A stretch of DNA of 64,000 nucleotides, taken from positions 12,305,119-12,369,118 of the forward strand of contig CM020618.1 of NCBI GenBank assembly GCA_009829735.1. The letters are read 5' to 3'. The notes under the pieces were generated by a model that was given only the letters and a program-made list of their open reading frames with translations, did no database searches and was not told the origin of the DNA. Source of the stretch: Pyropia yezoensis. Taxonomy: Eukaryota > Rhodophyta > Bangiophyceae > Bangiales > Bangiaceae. Below are positions 40,807 through 50,830 of this stretch, in pieces (the stretch's first letter is position 1; every line of letters starts with the position of its first letter). Position numbers and translations under genes: made by a program.

Positions 40807-41955
40807 GAAAGACATTTTTTAATTAATCAACGATGTGTCATTTTTAATACCTTTTTTGACATTGAACTAAATTCCTCTGGACTTGTGCGCCTCCCACAAT
40901 GCGCCAGCATGAGTAAGCGTGGTTGGGCGCCAACCAAGCAGTCGCCGTGCAACGTTTGAGTGCCAGTGACGTCCTCTTTGCGCGCCCTCTATCCCTCCCC
41001 CTTCCCACCGTGCCACGAAAAGAGCTTCGGGGGCCTACCGTTTTCGAGTGTCGGGTCGGCTCACGATACCCATGAAGACTTACCATGGAGGTTGACAGTG
41101 CGGGATTTGAAGCCTCAGCTGGCGATCGCGGCGGGCACCGCGTCGGCCGCGTCGGCCGCGGACCGTCTCCTGCGGAAAATAACCCGGTTTTTATGCTGGT
41201 TTGTTTGCCCAGGAAACGCGCATTGGTGGCCAGGAAACGCCCAGGAAACCCTCTCAATGAGACAACGAATCGATCACGGAATTCCTCATGATAGAGTGCA
41301 CCAAAGCAGAGAAAATGACTTATTCTGTTCTCGGGAGCATCTCAGATGTAAGAATGCGGCAATGATGTCACAATCCAGCACTGACAGTGCGGTTGCACAG
41401 AACGTCCCGAATGCGCGCCCGAGAAGCGCCCCGACACGACGCCGGGCTGTCCGAACGCGGCGGGACGCGCATAGATCCGACACCCGGGCGTTCCGGGCTC
41501 GGGCATTCGTCAGGTTCAGATCCGGCGAGATGTTGCAGGCGAAGCGATAGGAGTATCCAGCATGCGTCAGATTGCGAGTAGATCAATGGATAGGATGACT
41601 TGTAAGCACCCCTATTCGTCACGGACTTGACTTAGATGAGACTAGTCCTGTTGGACTTCATCTTAGGACGTGTAGTATTGAGAAAGCGTTTCCTGATATT
41701 TCAACTGCCTTTTCTGGCCATGATAACTCGTACTGTTCACAATTATTGATTCTGGTATTCTTGACTGAGCGTCACGGTAGTTTATTCACAGGGGCAACAA
41801 GTAAGAAAGTATGCTGATTAGAGCGGGATAACGCGCGTTGGGCTATTTTTTCAGCAAAGCTGAGACGCGTTGAGAGCGCTCAAAGTGCGTGTTAGCACTG
41901 CTTGTCCATGAACAGCTGCACACCGTCTTCTGAAACACTACTGATGGGAAACGCC

Positions 41956-42372
41956 CACTTTCCCTTCGGCTGGGACAACGCTGTTAACTGGTCCGGGCGG
42001 TGGGCGGCCCGGTCGGCGGCGCCTGTAAGCTGGGTGCTGCTGTCGAGCTGACCCTGTGCCGGCGTGGCGGGAGCGGCGGCCCGTTTTTTGCTCCGGGGTG
42101 GGTCGGTGCCCGTCCGCCGCTTGGCGTACGGCACGACGATGCCAGGACGGTATCGCCGCCTGGGCGCCCACCCCGCTCTCTCTCTCTCTCTCCGCCTCCT
42201 CCCCTCACCCCCACGCACGGGGCAGCGGACCCTGGTACCGCCTGGACGGCGGGCGGACGCGGCACGCCCGCACGCGGCGGCCGCCGGCCGGGGCACCGGG
42301 GGGCTGAAGAGCGGGCCGCCCACACCCGTCTGTCGCCAGCGGCCGGCCGGCAACGTCCTTCTCCTTGCCGCG
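41956..42372 (+). repeat. terminal direct repeat A1
   Basis: 417 bp, matching A2 (46701-47117) with few differences. It begins CACTTTCCCTTCGGCTGGGA and includes a CT-rich tract (TCTCTCTCTC). Its right part overlaps the upstream gag frame. Confidence 0.92.
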
Positions 42373-43566
42373 GTTGCACGCGGCAAGAAGGATTACCAGG
42401 CTGCCTTCCGCGGCCTCGGCTTGACGCCGACTGCGCGCCTGCTAGGCGTGAGCATGGGAGAGGACGACGCGCGGGGCACGCCGCCGCGGGTAGCGGAGGT
42501 CGTGACCAAGGCAGAGATCGACGAGATTGAGGCGCAGCTCGCGCAGCTCCTTGCCGTCGTCAATGCCCCCCCCGCGGCGGAGCGGTCGCATTCGGCGGCC
42601 GCCCCCGAAGCTCCGCGAGGACGGACCGCCGGTGACGGCGGCCATCCACGCGACGAAGACGAGGACCGGGACGACGCCGACGACTCCGGCCACGACGGCT
42701 CGACCGTCACCTCGAGTGGTGACTCCCTGCTTTGCGGGATCGGGGACGGGCACGGGGGTGGGTACATCCCCTCCAGCGCCGACAAGGGACGGCGCGCCCA
42801 CATTGTGCTACACCCCGACGGTTTCGACGACCCAGACCTCCCCGACGCGCACGATCTCATTCGGGCCTACGACGTACCTGCCTCCGTCCGACGGCGCGAC
42901 GGTATCCCCGTCCCTTTCTAGCCGGACGACGCGCGCTTCCACGCCAACTTCCGGCACGGCTCCGCCGGCTACCACGAGGCCGCATTCGCCTACCAGGTGG
43001 CCGCGTGGACCCAGGAGATCTCCAACGCCGCGGTCACCCTCTACCACCAGCGCCACGACTACAACGCCGCCGGCCTGGCGGACCGACTCGCTGGCGCAGC
43101 CATGGCTACCCGGCAGCTCTTCCACCTCGCCACCGCCCAGTACGACTACCTCGAGTTCCGACAGCGGGACCCCGTTGGCGCCGAGCTCTACAAGGCGACT
43201 GAAGCGGTCCCCCGCAACACCTTCCGAGGCCCCAAGGGGCGGCGCTGGCTGTCGACGGTTGCGCGGGACGAAGTCAAGATCAACATCAAGGCCGCCGCCG
43301 AGGCCAGAGTCAACAAAGCGCGCGGCCGCAAGAGCAACCCCGGCGGAGGCGGGGGAGGCGGCGGTGGCGGCAGCGGAGGCGGCGGCGGCGGTGGCGGCGG
43401 AGGCAAGGGCGGCGGTGGAGGTGGCCAAGCAAAGAACGGAGGCGGCGGCCAAGGCGGCGGCCAAGGCGGTGGCGGTGGGCCTAAATCTGGCAAAGGAGGT
43501 GGCAGCGGCGGTAGCTCGTCCTCCGGCGGCAAGACCGGCGGTGGCGGCGGCGAAAGCCCCGCCTAA
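42064..43566 (+). pseudogene. gag: gag-like ORF with one in-frame stop
   Basis: One frame runs from 42064 to 43566, interrupted only by a TAG at 42919-42921. The likely Met is at 42454 (MGEDDARGTPP), since the part before it lies mostly in repeat A1. Before the stop there is an acidic region (RDEDEDRDDADDSGHDG). After it come an alpha-helical part (YHEAAFAYQVAAWTQEIS; LADRLAGAAMATRQLFHLA) and a long Gly-rich tail (about 43340-43560) with interspersed Lys and Ser. No zinc knuckle was seen. Its role as the particle or RNA-binding protein is inferred from position. The stop makes this copy defective unless it is suppressed. Confidence 0.7.
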
Positions 43567-45658
43567 GGATTTTCGTCAGGCCTCGGGGAGCACGGACTCC
43601 GCCTCGAGCGCCGAGGAGCAAGGAGCCCCGGCAGACGGGACGATCCCGACCGTCAGCCGGCAGGACGCCGTTCCGCGCCCCGTGCGACCATACGTGGCCA
43701 CGAGGCGCGCCATCAAGGAGTGGAGGTCCTTGGGGGCCTCTCGGCGGGTAATCGAGACCATCTTCCGGGGGGTGCAGATACCGTGGCGCCAGCGGCCTCC
43801 CCAGTTTCGCAGCCAAGGGTACAAGCTGAGCGACTCGGACAACAAGTGGGCGACGGAGGACCTGGAGCGGTGGGTCTCTGCGGGCTACCTGCGGGAGCTG
43901 TCGCCGACCGAAGCGGCGGCGGCGCACTGCGTGGTGGGGGCCTTCGTGACCCACAGCGCCGGCAAGCCACGCGTCGTCGTGGACTACCGTCACCCCAACT
44001 CGTACATGGAGCGGCGCCGCTTCAAGTACGAGACGCTGTGGGAGCTGGCCCCGGGCTTGACGCAGGGGGACCAGCTCATATCGTGGGATATCGCCGACGC
44101 CTTTCACCACCTGCGCATCCGCGCGGAGGACCAGCCCTTCCTGAGCTTCACCATACAAGGGAGGGTCTTTGCCCCGTTGTCCATGCCGTTTGGGTTGGCC
44201 ATCGCCCCGTTCACCTGGACGAAGGTGTGCAGCCCCGTGGTGGCCAAGCTAAGGGAGATGGGCTTCGTCGTGACGGTATACGTCGACGACCTTGGGGGCC
44301 GGCCGCCGGTCCCAGCGCCGGGGAGGCCGGCGACCAACGCAGACGCCGCAGCCGGTTGGGCAGCCGCGGTAAGACTGCTGGAGACTCTGGGTCTGCGGGT
44401 GCACCAGAGGAAAGGAGTCAAGGACGGCACGACGGAGCTGCCATTGTTGGGCCACGTGGTGGACATGCACCTGGGCGTGTTCCGCTTGCAGCCGCAGCGC
44501 GTCGAGAAGATCGAGACGTCGGCCGCGGCGCTGGTACGGTACGCGTCAAAGCACCGGTGGTGGGTGCGCTTCGGCGCGCTGCGGTCATTCTGCGGGATGG
44601 CCGTCTCAACCTCGCTGTCCGTGCCGCACGCCCGGTTTCGCACCCAGTCGCTGTTCGCCCTGTTGGGCCCGGCGATGCGAACCGCCCAGCACAGCCGGCC
44701 GCGCCACCGCGACGTGCGGCTGTCGCATCAAGCCCTGGCGGACCTCAAGTGGTGGGCGAACTTGACCGCCCACGCGCTGTTGGGCCGGGCGCTCTGGCCC
44801 CAACCGGACGACGCCACCGTCCACACCGACGCGAGTATGACGGGGTGGGGGGCGACGTGGAATGGCACGGTGCCGGCCAGGGGCTTCCATGCGCCGGAGC
44901 GCAAGCACCTGCACATCAACGTCCACGAGCTGGGCACCGTGCGGCTCGCGCTCCAGTCCTTCGTCAAGTTGCTGCAGCCCAAGCACACCGCGCTGCGATT
45001 GATGATGGACTCGCTCGTGAGCGTGCACGTCGTCAACAACGGCACGTCCAAGTCGGAGGCAATGATGCGGGAGCTGAGGTTGCTGCACGGGTGGTGCCAG
45101 CTGCACATCGTGGAGCTGCGCGCGAGCCACCTTCCGTCCGCGGTGAACAACGCGGCGGACCGGCTGTCAAGGAGCAACGACAGCACCGACTGGGCATTGT
45201 CGGACCGGGCGTTCCAACGTCTCAAGCACCAGTACGGACCACGCACGCTGGACTTGTTTGGGACCAGCCTCAACAACAAGTGCGGCCGGTACCTCTCGAG
45301 GACGGCGGACCCTGGCACGGCCGGCGTCGACGCGATGTCCCAGAATTGGGTGAGCGACAACTGTTGGGTCAACCCGCCCTTCCAGCTGATCGGGTCTGTG
45401 CTGGACAAGATCCTCCGCACTAAGGCCCGGGCAACGCTGATCGTGCCGGTCTGGAGTGCCCAGCCGTGGTGGCAGCGAGCGGTGGAGACCTGCGCGTCCT
45501 GGGAGGAGCTGCCCAAGGCCGAGGGGGTCTTTACCCACGACACGCAGACTACGCCGGCCAAGGCGCCAAAGTGGCGCGTAGCCGCGTTCCGGTTCGACGG
45601 GGACGTAACCCTGTCACCCGTCTCGTGCGCTGGCAGCGCCTGTGCGACAACATCTTAG
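43567..45658 (+). CDS. pol: reverse transcriptase, RNase H and methyltransferase-like polyprotein
   Basis: The open frame starts far upstream in overlap with gag (from 42527, +1 relative to gag); recognisable similarity begins near 43650. The reverse transcriptase includes GKPRVVVDYRHPNSYM, SWDIADAFHHLRIRAEDQPF, SMPFGLAIAPFTWTK and the catalytic VTVYVDDLGG (Tyr codon at 44279). RNase H follows with HTDASMTGWGATWNG, MMDSLVSVHVVNNG and NNAADRLSR. The C-terminal part has CWVNPPFQLIGSVLDKIL and TLIVPVWSAQPWW, the N-6-adenine methyltransferase-like domain typical of DIRS-order elements. No ATG lies between the gag stop and the domain, so a fusion or frameshift from gag is likely. Confidence 0.92.
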
Positions 45659-46773
45659 CACGTCGCCTCGACAGCGGGCCAGGGTCGGTGGAGGGGGCGC
45701 GCCTCTTGGAGGCATCCACGCAACCCGGGACGGCCAGCAAGTACGTCAACAACGGGGAGGCGTTCGCGTCCTTCTGCACGAGCGCCTCCCTCTCCCCCTT
45801 GCCGGCTAGCCCGGAGACGATCGGGCGATACCTGGGGTCGGTGCGGGCGCGCGGCACCGTGGCGGCCGGATCGCTCGGGCCGTACCTGTCGCCCATCGCG
45901 GCACTGCAAGCCCTGGCGGGTTACCCGAGTCCGACGTCAGACGCGTTGGTCAGGAGCGCCAAGCGCGGCTACCGGCGGGCGCAAACGGCGGCGGTTGGCG
46001 GGCTCCGCGAAAAGCGTGGCCCGCTCCCAGCCGAGGCGGTGAACTGCTTCCTAGGCTTGTGGCCCCGGGCGGCGCCCGCTCTACGCGACAAGATTGCCGG
46101 CGTCACCCTCGCCTACCTGCTCTTCAACCGGCCTGAGGCGGCCTCCCACATGCGGGCATGCGACGTCTTCCCGACGGGGCGGGGCCTGGAGATACAGGTG
46201 CCCGACTACAAGATGGGGGTGCTGAAGGACGGCGAGCGGATTGCCTACACCGTCCCCGTGTTGTCCGGCGGGTGGGGGAGCGACGCGGTGCTCTCTCTGG
46301 TGCGTGGCCACTGGCGCGCGCACCGTGCGGCGGGGCGGCCCGCAACGGAGCGCCTGTTCGCGCCGGCGGGCCAGCGCAACCCACTCCCGATGCAGATCGT
46401 CACCACGTGGTTGAGAGAGCTACTGTCGCTCTCCGCCGTCCGCGCCCCGTTGGGGACCAAGTGGTCCGGCCACTCTCTCCGGGCTTGCGCGGCATCCGAG
46501 GCGCACGCGCTCGGGCTCCGCGACGCGCTTATCCGGCAGCTGATGGGCCTGGCCGACATCAAGACGGCCTACCGGCACTACATCGACGCGACGTGGGCGC
46601 CTACCTCGGCAGCCTGGGACTGGCTTGGGCGGTACGATCCTCGTACACGCCCACATCTCCGAGTGAATGGCTACACCCCCTCCCCCTTCCCGGTTAAGCT
46701 CACTTTCCCTTCGGCTGGGACAACGCTGTTAACTGGTCCGGGCGGTGGGCGGCCCGGTCGGCGGCGCCTGTAA
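45600..46773 (+). CDS. tyrosine recombinase of the retrotransposon
   Basis: Site-specific recombinase that inserts the circular DNA copy of the element. Catalytic residues are visible: Arg in LLFNRPEAASHM (codon 46129), the HxxR box GHSLRACAASEAH (His at 46471) and the nucleophile Tyr in YRHYID (46579). The N-terminal SAM-like part includes TASKYVNNGEAFASFC and SPETIGRYLGSVRA. The open frame overlaps the end of pol in another frame and has no ATG before the catalytic domain, so translation by frameshifting or splicing from pol is implied. The C-terminus runs through repeat B1 into A2, so the last ~35 residues come from terminal-repeat DNA. Confidence 0.92.
46668..46696 (+). repeat. split direct repeat B1
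   Basis: 29 bp starting TGGCTACACCCCCTCCCCCT, identical to B2. It lies 4 bp before A2. Confidence 0.9.
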
Positions 46774-47117
46774 GCTGGGTGCTGCTGTCGAGCTGACCCT
46801 GTGCCGGCGTGGCGGGAGCGGCGGCCCGTTTTTTGCTCCGGGGTGGGTCGGTGCCCGTCCGCCGCTTGGTGTACGGCACGACGATGCCAGGGCGGTATCG
46901 CCGCCTGGGCGCCCACCCCGCTCTCTCTCTTTCTCTCCGCCCCCTCCCCTCACCCCCCCGCACGGAGCAGCGGACCCTGGTACCGCCTGGACGGCGGGCG
47001 GACGCGGCACGCCCGCACGCGGCGGCCGCCGGCCGGGGCACCGGGCGGCTGAAGAGCGGGCCGCCCACCCCCGTCTCTCGCCGGCGGCCGGCCGGCAACG
47101 TCGTCCTTCTTGCCGCG
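46701..47117 (+). repeat. split direct repeat A2
   Basis: 417 bp, second copy of A1, directly after B1. The junction B1-A2 is the expected recombination product of PAT/Ngaro-type ends. Confidence 0.92.
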
Positions 47118-47292
47118 CCCCTGGCCTCCCCAGCGCTGGTTGGGCGCTGCTATCCGGGGAGGGGCTCTACGCCCTTTTGTCTTGGGCGGGGCGACGAGTG
47201 TGCCCCGCCATCTACGAGCGCACATGTTGCACTGCTCTCATGTTTTTTTTGGACTTTTCTCTCTCGTGCTCAATAAACGGTCGAGCGTTCAT

Positions 47293-47321
47293 TGGCTACA
47301 CCCCCTCCCCCTTCCCGGTTA
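47293..47321 (+). repeat. split direct repeat B2 (right end of element)
   Basis: 29 bp identical to B1, followed by unrelated sequence (ACGTAACTTCG onward becomes host). It marks the right end of the element. Confidence 0.88.
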
Positions 47322-47766
47322 CGTAACTTCGCGAAATATTCATAAACTGTCCAGAATGAGCAATAGCTGGGATGTTCTTCCGAGCAGTCCTGAAGTCTGT
47401 GAGGCTCAATGACAAATGACAGACCTTCTCTGAAGCGACTCTGTGGCCAGACTCGGTTGAAGCATGGGACATTGTCGAACACTCTTCTGCGGACTATTGT
47501 TCATCGTCCGATACCAGTGTCCAGGAAGCGGGGACAAAACGCTGTGAGGCTAGTAAAGTCAAGTTTGCAGCTTGGTACGGAAAATGTCTTAAAACTTCCG
47601 TTCTGCACGCACTGGGCCTTGAGGGCGGCTTTCATAATGAGAAGTCTCCTTACTACAGTGTATGTACTGTATGTACACCCCCCCCTCGCCTGGAGTTGGG
47701 CGCAACCCCAATCCCCAGGCTCTTGGAGGCCTTGGCGGGCTTGGGAGCTCCCGCCCGGCCCGGCCT
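47322..47766. other. spacer between two mobile elements, no gene recognised
   Basis: Moderate GC. Nothing recognisable was found. Confidence 0.5.
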
Positions 47767-48074
47767 CCCTACAACAAAAATAATCCGGATATCGGGGTTT
47801 TCTGTACTGGACGGAGGACCCTTGTGGGACTCGTCGAAAACCCTCAATATGATTTTTCAAGCCATCATCGGAGAGCATTGTCGCCCGCCAGAAGTGTCCG
47901 CAACCGCTTCTCATGATGTGGCGCAGACGCCATCTCTTGGACCGAGGCGCGCATCACAGCGGCTGCAACCACGTGCGACGCGATCGAGACAACGCTCAGA
48001 GCCTGCATGAGAGCCACTCTCATGATCTGAAGCGGTCAGCTAACTCGAACAGCAGACCCCACTCCTGCACCTGA

Positions 48075-48170: not shown

Positions 48171-50327
48171 GGGACTTTGATAGGCTGTGGATCATCCTCA
48201 GCGGGAACTCGAGGTCAGGGGGGCACTCGAGGTCAGATCAGCGTACCTTTAGGGGCAGTCGTTATATTAGGTATACATTAGTGTTCAACAAAACTTCAGT
48301 TGATATACAATGTTGTGTATCCAAATAAAAAATGATCAAAAAACGATCGGTGAGCTTCGTTCGAACTCTCACTTGCTACTGCCCCAGGCTCTCGCACCCC
48401 GTACTTATATGCGCCGCTCACCGTCACGCTATGGTACGTTGCACAAAAAAGATACACGGATGTTTTTCTCGGCTCGGGCCCGGGCTCCGCACCGGCCGCG
48501 GCGGGGTCCACGGTGGCCATGCTGACAGAAGGATCACATAGTCCCATGCGAACTCATGAGGTCCTTGGGCCCCCTGGACGGTGTACCGCTTTCAGGGACA
48601 CCCTGGGTGGACCGGCTGCTGTCGAACATGAAATGGGGCCATCCTTTTCGCATTGATTTGCCCGGCTCGGGGGTGGGTCCGGGCCCATGCGCTAACTGAG
48701 GCTTGGAAGAGGGATAGTCGATTTTAGAGAGAAGCCTAGGGACGGCTGGAGGCCATTGTTTTGAGGACCTTTTTCCGTGAGCGGGTCACCGTTTCTTAGA
48801 TGGCCGTTCTTGAGGTAAATGTTCCATGTCATGGGGTCGCCTGGTTAGTCCACGAAGAAGCCTGGTCCTCATGTGTCCAATGCTCATTGAGGCATCTCGG
48901 GCAGGTGCCCCTCATGCTCCTGACGAAGCGGCGTCTCCTCCCCCTTCCCCTCGTGGACCCCTCTTCTTGACCAGGCACATCAGGGAGGCAACCCCCCCCA
49001 AGCCAGCTTCCCTCTGGCGGTTCTACCTTTGGCAGGTGGAGTGCAGTGCGGGGGGGCGTGCCCAGGTGGAGTGGGTTCTCCATAAGCGCCGACAGTGCGC
49101 GAACCCAGGAAGCAAGGGGAAAGGCGTCTCCTGTGTGCGTGGCGTGGGGGGGGGTCATGCCTCAAGAAGGGGCGGAAGTGCACGACATCGCATCAAGGCA
49201 CTTCGTGCTTTGTGCGCGAAGTGCCTCGTTGCTGTTTGGCCTATCGTGCAGACCTTCCCAAGGCCCCCCCAAAATTCGGCCCTCTCGAAACCCTGCACCA
49301 TCCCGACACCACCTTCCTCCCTCTTCCGCTGCACCAGAATTTACCCACCCAGTCCCTCTTATCCCTTCTGCCCAGCGGAGCCACCGCACCAGCCCCCCTG
49401 CGCCCGCAACGGAAAGAAGAACGCCGGCGCTGACGCGGGCGCGAACGCCGGCGGCTAACACCATCGCCACTGTGTCGCCGTCACCCACTGCACTCCAATT
49501 CAAACAGTGACTTTACCCTGCCCGTTTCACCTTGCGCCGACGGACCCTCCCCCCGCCCCCCCATGCAGCTATCAAACCCCCCGCCATCGCCGTAGCTGCC
49601 CTCGCTCAAACAAGAACCCCGCCGCCATGCGTCACCTAAATGCCCCCAACGCAGAAGCCATCAACATCCCCTCCCCTCCCCCTCCAAAAAAGGGACACTA
49701 CCAGCCCTTGGAACCCTCCCCCGCCACCCCCTAGTGCTGCCACCGGCACCACACCCCCCAGCCAAAACACCGACCCCGCCATCCCCAGCGACCTGCCGGA
49801 CCCCCTCACAGAGTGCCCCCACCGTCCCCCCACCCTCCCCCTGCGCACCGTCCCCGCGGTCGCCCGTCGCCCGCCTCCCCCTTCCCCACAACGGCGGCGG
49901 CACCACCGCCCCCCCAAAAGACGTAGCCACGGCTCTCTGTGGCGTTCCTCACGCTCACCAAAAAAACCAGTCCACACGGCCGTCTGCCCGCCGCCCCCTC
50001 CCCCCCCCCCCTCAAACACAGTCCCCCCCTCCTCCCTCCCCCAAACACATTACCACAGCCGCCTGTGGCCTGCCCGTCTTTGCGACCGCCTCGATGGCTG
50101 CCGCGGCGGCCGCCGTGGCCGCCGCCTCGTCGATAGCCACCGCCGCCTCCGCGTCGACGGCCGCCGCCGTGACCGACGTCGCCACCGCCGCCGCCGCGGT
50201 CACCACTGCCGCCACATCGGATGCAGCAGCCGTCACCACGGACACCGCGGCAGGCGAGGTGGCCGCCACCGTGGGCACCGGCACAGGCGGGGTGTCCACC
50301 CCCACACTCTTGACTGCCGCGCCGGCC

Positions 50328-50467
50328 GCAGCCACAGGAGCCGACGCCACTTGCGCCGTCGCCGTCGCCGTCACCGGCGCCGCCCCCCCCCCCCCCCGCA
50401 GCCACAGGAGCCGACGCCACTTGCGCCGTCGCCGTCGCCGTCACCGGCGCCGCCCCCCCCCCCCCCC
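50328..50467. repeat. 70-bp tandem duplication
   Basis: Two adjacent copies beginning GCAGCCACAGGAGCCGACGC (50328 and 50398), each ending in a long C-run. Confidence 0.85.
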
Positions 50468-50479
50468 CCGCCCTCCCCA

Positions 50480-50830
50480 CCCCCAAACGCAACGTTGTCG
50501 CCGCCATCGCCGTCCACGTCGCCGTCGCTGTCGTTTCCGCCGTCGTTGCCGTTGACGCCGCCGGTGTCGCCGCCGTCGCCGCCGCCATTGACGCCGCCGG
50601 GGTCGCCGCCGTCGCCGCCGCCGTTGCTACCGCCGTTGCCGCCGCCGTTGCCGCTGCCGTTGCCGCTGCCGTTGCCGCTGCCGTTGCCGCCGCCGTTGCC
50701 GCCGCCGTTGCCGCCGCCGTCGCGCCGCTGTCGCTGTCGCCGCCGCCGTCGATGCTGCCGTCGATGCTGCCGTCGATGCTGCCGACGATGCTGCCGTCGT
50801 CGACGCCGGCGGCGGCACCGCCCCCTCGCC
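50480..50830. repeat. CCG/GTT-type microsatellite array
   Basis: Degenerate 3-, 6- and 12-bp repeats such as GCCGCCGTT, GTTGCCGCT and CGATGCTGCCGT. One frame reads as Pro/Leu-rich and others as Ala- or Arg/Cys-rich. No frame can be favoured, so I do not call a gene. Confidence 0.75.

Follow-up and report, generated by a model that had tools for sequence, protein, structure and literature searches.

A DIRS-order retrotransposon of probable PAT type in the red alga Pyropia yezoensis, with related tandem arrays and solo remnants

Introduction

Retrotransposons of the DIRS order insert without target-site duplication. In the published scheme (PMC4157794), a methyltransferase domain is what defines DIRS elements, and PAT elements are those among them that have split direct repeats. 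Ngaro and VIPER elements have no methyltransferase, and both have split repeats with the internal B1-A2 unit after the recombinase. The same text describes Kangaroo as having an inverted recombinase, and the algal Toc3 as having a direct recombinase and no zinc finger; PAT, Toc and Kangaroo are described likewise in PMC3266345. PAT-like elements are also reported from Chlamydomonas and its relatives (PMC8226300), and according to PMC6681497 they do not form one clade, which counts against filing an element under PAT. No report of DIRS elements in Bangiales or Pyropia was found in the literature searched, which lies largely outside subscription journals and wholly outside Repbase.

Here we describe an element in a 64,000-nucleotide stretch of P. 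yezoensis DNA (the window; C1:12305119-12369118) and its relatives in the genome (107.5 Mb in 11 contigs, C1 etc.; L numbers denote other loci of this genome). The element is very probably a tyrosine-recombinase retrotransposon that belongs to the DIRS order, being of PAT type and Toc3-like, an assignment set by its features and, for Toc3, by description only.

Results

Layout and ends of the element

The element spans positions 41952-47321 of the window (5370 bp) and is ordered A1 - gag - RT...methyltransferase-like - tyrosine recombinase - B1-A2 - B2, as follows.

41952..42372, + strand: A1, left terminal part of the split direct repeat, beginning CGCCCACTTT; placed by comparison with A2 (13 differences in 417), the CGCC start and the empty-site border
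42454..43566, + strand: gag-like frame with a Gly-rich end and no evident zinc finger; the first in-frame ATG, at 42454, is the putative start
43565..45658, + strand: pol, encoding a reverse transcriptase with YVDD, a region that resembles RNase H in its motifs, and a Dam-like methyltransferase with NPPF; the first and the last from Pfam
45595..46665, + strand: tyrosine recombinase, with R179, K211, H293xxR296 and Y329; from catalytic residues, a match to Cre and genome matches
46668..46696, + strand: B1, the inner counterpart of B2, to which it is identical at 29/29 positions
46697..47117, + strand: A2, the inner counterpart of A1, adjoining B1; from the repeat alignment to A1
47272..47277, + strand: AATAAA, a putative poly(A) signal about 20 nt 5' of B2
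47293..47321, + strand: B2, right terminal repeat, ending ...CCGGTTA; from identity with B1, with the right border taken from the empty site and other copies

The alignment of A1 with A2 contains 406/420 identities (695 bits, E 0.0). Counted from the CACTTT start the repeats agree at 404 of 417 positions, i.e., the near-identity over 417 bp recorded in the original prediction, which corresponds to 13 differences and 3.1% divergence; the first four nucleotides add two further differences (CGCC in A1, AGCT in A2). B1 and B2 are identical over all 29 nt. The order A1 ... B1-A2 ... B2 is far beyond chance, and the split direct repeats that had been proposed are thus present. The left end, previously set at 41956, was slightly misplaced and is better put at 41952, since CGCC also opens other copies and a 4-nt gap in the empty-site alignment falls on the same letters.

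With a slash marking each border, the outer ends of other copies read flank/CGCC on the left and GGTTA/flank on the right, with GGTTA/CGCC at the inner junction; the B1-A2 junction is GGTTA/CGCCCACTTT, or nearly so, in the window element, L021, L022, L015, L013 and L006. At the position matching the AATAAA of the window, all five copies compared carry CAATAAA, CAGTAAA or CAATTAAA.

Coding regions

All three coding regions lie on the + strand, and no stop interrupts the frames of pol and recombinase. The gag frame, which had been recognized earlier, carries an in-frame TAG at 42919-42921 that had been missed, and which divides it into two open stretches, 42052-42921 and 42922-43566, that share one reading frame. 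Both pieces are matched, one codon apart, by five relatives (L005, L013, L018, L021 and L022), all of which are open at the TAG position; L015 is too degraded there to judge, L017 matches the second piece only, and L016 neither. Inspection of the gag pieces by eye gave no C-x-C finger pattern.

In pol, the hits to RVT_1 (E 3.3e-9) and to Dam (PF05869; E 3.5e-8) both exceed the Pfam cut-offs, Dam with 33.8 bits where 28.1 are required, in agreement with the predicted reverse transcriptase and methyltransferase-like domain, and the YVDD motif is intact; the frame is 68% identical to the pol of L021. A PDB profile search with pol returned matches in the reverse transcriptase region only (best E 0.0045) and none for the methyltransferase. 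The segment which we take to be RNase H-like, from its likeness to the motifs of that domain, gave neither a Pfam match up to E 1 nor a PDB match.

The R, HxxR and Y from which a complete recombinase was originally proposed are present as R179, H293xxR296 and Y329, along with K211; the open frame of the recombinase continues to 46773, through B1 into A2. Phage_integrase scores 16.5 bits, below the Pfam cut-off of 27.1, and a profile of five genomic rows, two of them array units that hardly differ, gives a match to Cre at E 8.9e-10 that covers the first half of the profile (profile positions 51-197 of 350). In this profile the K, H, R and Y of the catalytic set are invariant (5/5 rows) and the first R is kept in 4/5, being C in L005. 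The frame layout of the window element recurs in L005 and L021 and is different in L013, L018 and L022; placement of pol and recombinase in different frames was considered as a defect and rejected, because L005 and L021 share this layout.

Many pol matches elsewhere in the genome carry exactly one TAG. Recoding of TAG was rejected as an explanation, as the stops are scattered: in 11 single-TAG stretches they occupy 10 different places, the shared place being that of the sister loci L026 and L033. An excess of TAG is expected, because 134 codon changes in the window pol lead to TAG, compared with 46 to TGA and 23 to TAA.

Relatives in the genome and age of the copy

A genome-wide protein search (E <= 1e-10) yielded at least 114 recombinase matches, with some copies counted as two pieces, and the search for other copies called for by the original prediction thereby recovered independent copies with the same architecture. 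All four repeats, A1, B1, A2 and B2, are seen in the window element, L021, L022 and L015; L013 retains B1-A2-B2 and part of A1, L006 retains B1-A2-B2, and L035 retains B1 and B2. Split direct repeats are thus found in the four copies with all repeat ends, in these three partial ones and in both tandem arrays examined (see below). Two loci on C3 (808573-824329) hold A1 (L005) and B1-A2-B2 (L006) with ~10 kb of other DNA between them, and are probably one split element. Also on C3 (108000-126500), L007 and L008 are two ~3.1 kb copies with an A start, a B end and a pol cut short, which are separated by ~12.6 kb and set in similar sequence.

The open pol and recombinase frames, the intact YVDD, the 404/417 match of A1 and A2, and the identity of B1 and B2 could be taken as signs that the window copy works fully and moved very recently. 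We regard this reading as improbable. The gag of the window copy is interrupted where five relatives are open, and because of this stop the copy is, judged from its sequence, probably not autonomous. Moreover, a DNA search with the recombinase found 22 other matches in the genome, of which the best is 74% identical over most of the query; apart from a 90-nt fragment at 87%, no other full-length recombinase gene exceeds 74%, and no close sister copy was found that would point to recent multiplication. The A repeats are also more similar to each other in L021 (4 differences in a 406-nt repeat) and L022 (6/370) than in the window, with 42/495 in L015 and 12/166 in L013, where the comparison covers only 166 nt of an A1 whose start was not found. 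L016 and L017, which are degraded, L012, which lacks an A start, and half-length matches were left out of this comparison. Assuming that A1/A2 divergence dates a copy as LTR divergence does, the window element is of intermediate age and not the youngest, and the earlier description of it as young and recently moved was overstated.

The first 169 of the 417 nt are free of differences between A1 and A2 in the window element (chance ~0.001, in a test chosen after seeing the data), as would fit copying of the A1 tip from A2. Such regeneration of the tip is unsupported as a general pattern: the differences fall at 27, 286, 333 and 394 in L021 and at 20, 45, 81, 246, 282 and 327 in L022, and are evenly spread in L015.

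Comparison with described elements

The window element combines the features of PAT, i.e., split direct repeats, a methyltransferase domain, a tyrosine recombinase and no target-site duplication, and its recombinase in the direction of pol, together with a gag lacking an evident zinc finger, points to the Toc3-like branch. With Toc3, as described in section 7 of PMC4157794, it shares the split direct repeats, methyltransferase, same-direction recombinase, absence of a gag zinc finger and algal host; it differs in that the host here is a red alga, and the place of the internal repeats in Toc3 is unstated in that section. Pat1-like elements of nematode and sea urchin are similar in split direct repeats, reverse transcriptase, methyltransferase and recombinase; however, the gag of Pat1 has a zinc finger (PMC4157794), and none is evident here. 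Kangaroo of Volvox is likewise an algal PAT element with no zinc finger, but its recombinase is inverted and its internal repeats lie between methyltransferase and recombinase, whereas those of the window element follow a direct recombinase (PMC4157794).

DIRS1-like elements belong to the same order and share reverse transcriptase, methyltransferase and recombinase. In contrast to DIRS1, which has inverted terminal repeats, none were found at the tips of the window element: among the best four inverted matches in each of five copies none reaches the tips or includes the first 38 nt, the longest being 72 columns at 72% inside the A repeat of L021. Other genomic copies with inverted termini would have spoken against the predicted layout; the copies examined, which are a part of the 114 recombinase matches, show split direct repeats instead.

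An Ngaro- or VIPER-type element would have the same repeat order, with the internal B1-A2 after the recombinase. The Dam-like domain is above its Pfam cut-off here and is absent from both groups by the published scheme (PMC4157794), which makes this affiliation highly improbable; of the PAT/Ngaro-type ends originally suggested, PAT is retained and Ngaro falls away. DIRS1, Ngaro, VIPER and Kangaroo each differ from the element in a tested feature. The assignment to the DIRS order was correct, and the combination of methyltransferase with split direct ends does serve to classify the element, as had been anticipated; it is not new, being the published definition of PAT. A search for distant relatives in viral_contigs gave 42 pattern matches, none of them confirmed.

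There is a negligible chance that A1 and A2 represent an unrelated segmental duplication flanking an ordinary insertion: some related loci do sit in duplicated surroundings (L010/L011, L007/L008), but L021, L022 and L015, each in different flanks, repeat the A1...B1-A2...B2 order together with its end motifs, and in each of these the A2 similarity stops before B2.

Insertion site

The search for empty sites suggested in the original prediction found an uninterrupted paralog of the target. This site, L001 (C1:18023010-18023193, minus strand), runs through the insertion point and is identical to the window flanks at 244/302 positions (81%), and is thus a paralog and not an orthologous allele. 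The 4-nt gap in its alignment coincides with the initial CGCC of A1. Together with the other copies it gives the insertion as GGGAAA/CGCC...GGTTA/CGTAACTT, with a right flank beginning CGTA and an ambiguity of 2 nt in the insertion point, arising from a CG common to element and target. No target-site duplication is present at the window element relative to this paralogous site, and the longest repeat abutting both ends at seven insertion sites is 0, 0, 0, 1, 0, 2 and 1 nt. Conservative joining by a tyrosine recombinase would be expected to leave no such duplication. Because the site is a paralog, the evidence that it provides for insertion without duplication is strong but indirect.

The flanks of the window element belong to repeated sequence. 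The left flank (window 41400-41730) has ~40 matches that span most of it at 83-94%, and the right flank (47764-47900) matches several places at 98-99%. Further downstream, 50326-50808 consists of dense GC-rich tandem repeats with units of 70, 36 and 24 nt.

Tandem arrays and solo remnants

Related elements form two tandem arrays. Array 1 (C1:28368316-28405500 and beyond; L018-L020, L023) has 8 recombinase places spaced 4679-4686 bp apart, and the stretches compared are 99.6-99.9% identical to one reference unit; array 2 (C1:39061200-39079047; L034, L027) has 4, at a spacing of 4959 bp. Read at their 3' sides, both end in YR-B1-A2-unique-B2, with a period equal to A-core-B, and thus as (A-core-B)n-A2-B2. 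A single TAG in pol stands at the same place in all 7 units compared of array 1 and in both units compared of array 2. The simplest reading is that the arrays grew in place from one copy already bearing the stop, although they may be an assembly error. Three further pairs of recombinase matches, C3:2364964/2369921 (4957 bp), C2:32210180/32215865 (5685 bp) and C3:12631974/12637498 (5524 bp), may be short tandems.

Solo A-B remnants without a core, the counterpart of solo LTRs, were found as 714 nt at L009 (1203-1916), L010 and L011, which represent one insertion copied with its surroundings since their flanks are shared, and as 688 nt at L014 (reverse strand, 1885-2572). Unequal recombination between A1 and A2 would yield arrays, and its reciprocal product would be a solo A-B remnant, which is present. 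For tandem LTR retrotransposons of plants, single insertion is favored over recombination by the authors (PMC11899658), and TATE elements are tandem in Leishmania (PMC6681497).

Discussion

The layout, domains, abutting ends and target paralog described above are observed, and to these the published model of the group can be applied. In this model the RNA would start in A1 and end at or near B2, and would be copied by the reverse transcriptase; with the internal B1-A2 as template, the ends would be brought together in a DNA circle containing a B2-A1 junction, at which the recombinase would insert the circle into a target of loose specificity, leaving no duplication of that target.

Such a cycle leaves room for a second role of the enzyme. 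The B1-A2 junction, taken to be complete in every genomic copy, would duplicate the junction of the circle, so that the recombinase could excise and re-insert A-core-B units, and re-insertion at B1-A2 would give tandem arrays and solo A-B remnants. We consider it unlikely that the recombinase in this way drives local amplification via the B1-A2 junctions of integrated copies, besides homologous recombination. If true, the split direct repeats would be a built-in site of array growth in red algal chromosomes.

The classification of the order is unchanged by the window element, the arrays or the solo remnants. What this patchily sampled order gains is a red algal genome with an abundance of PAT-type elements. 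It comes with a comparison to an empty site, with ends that are defined in several copies, and with both solo remnants and tandem arrays; through the arrays one could ask whether integrated copies are acted on by the recombinase.
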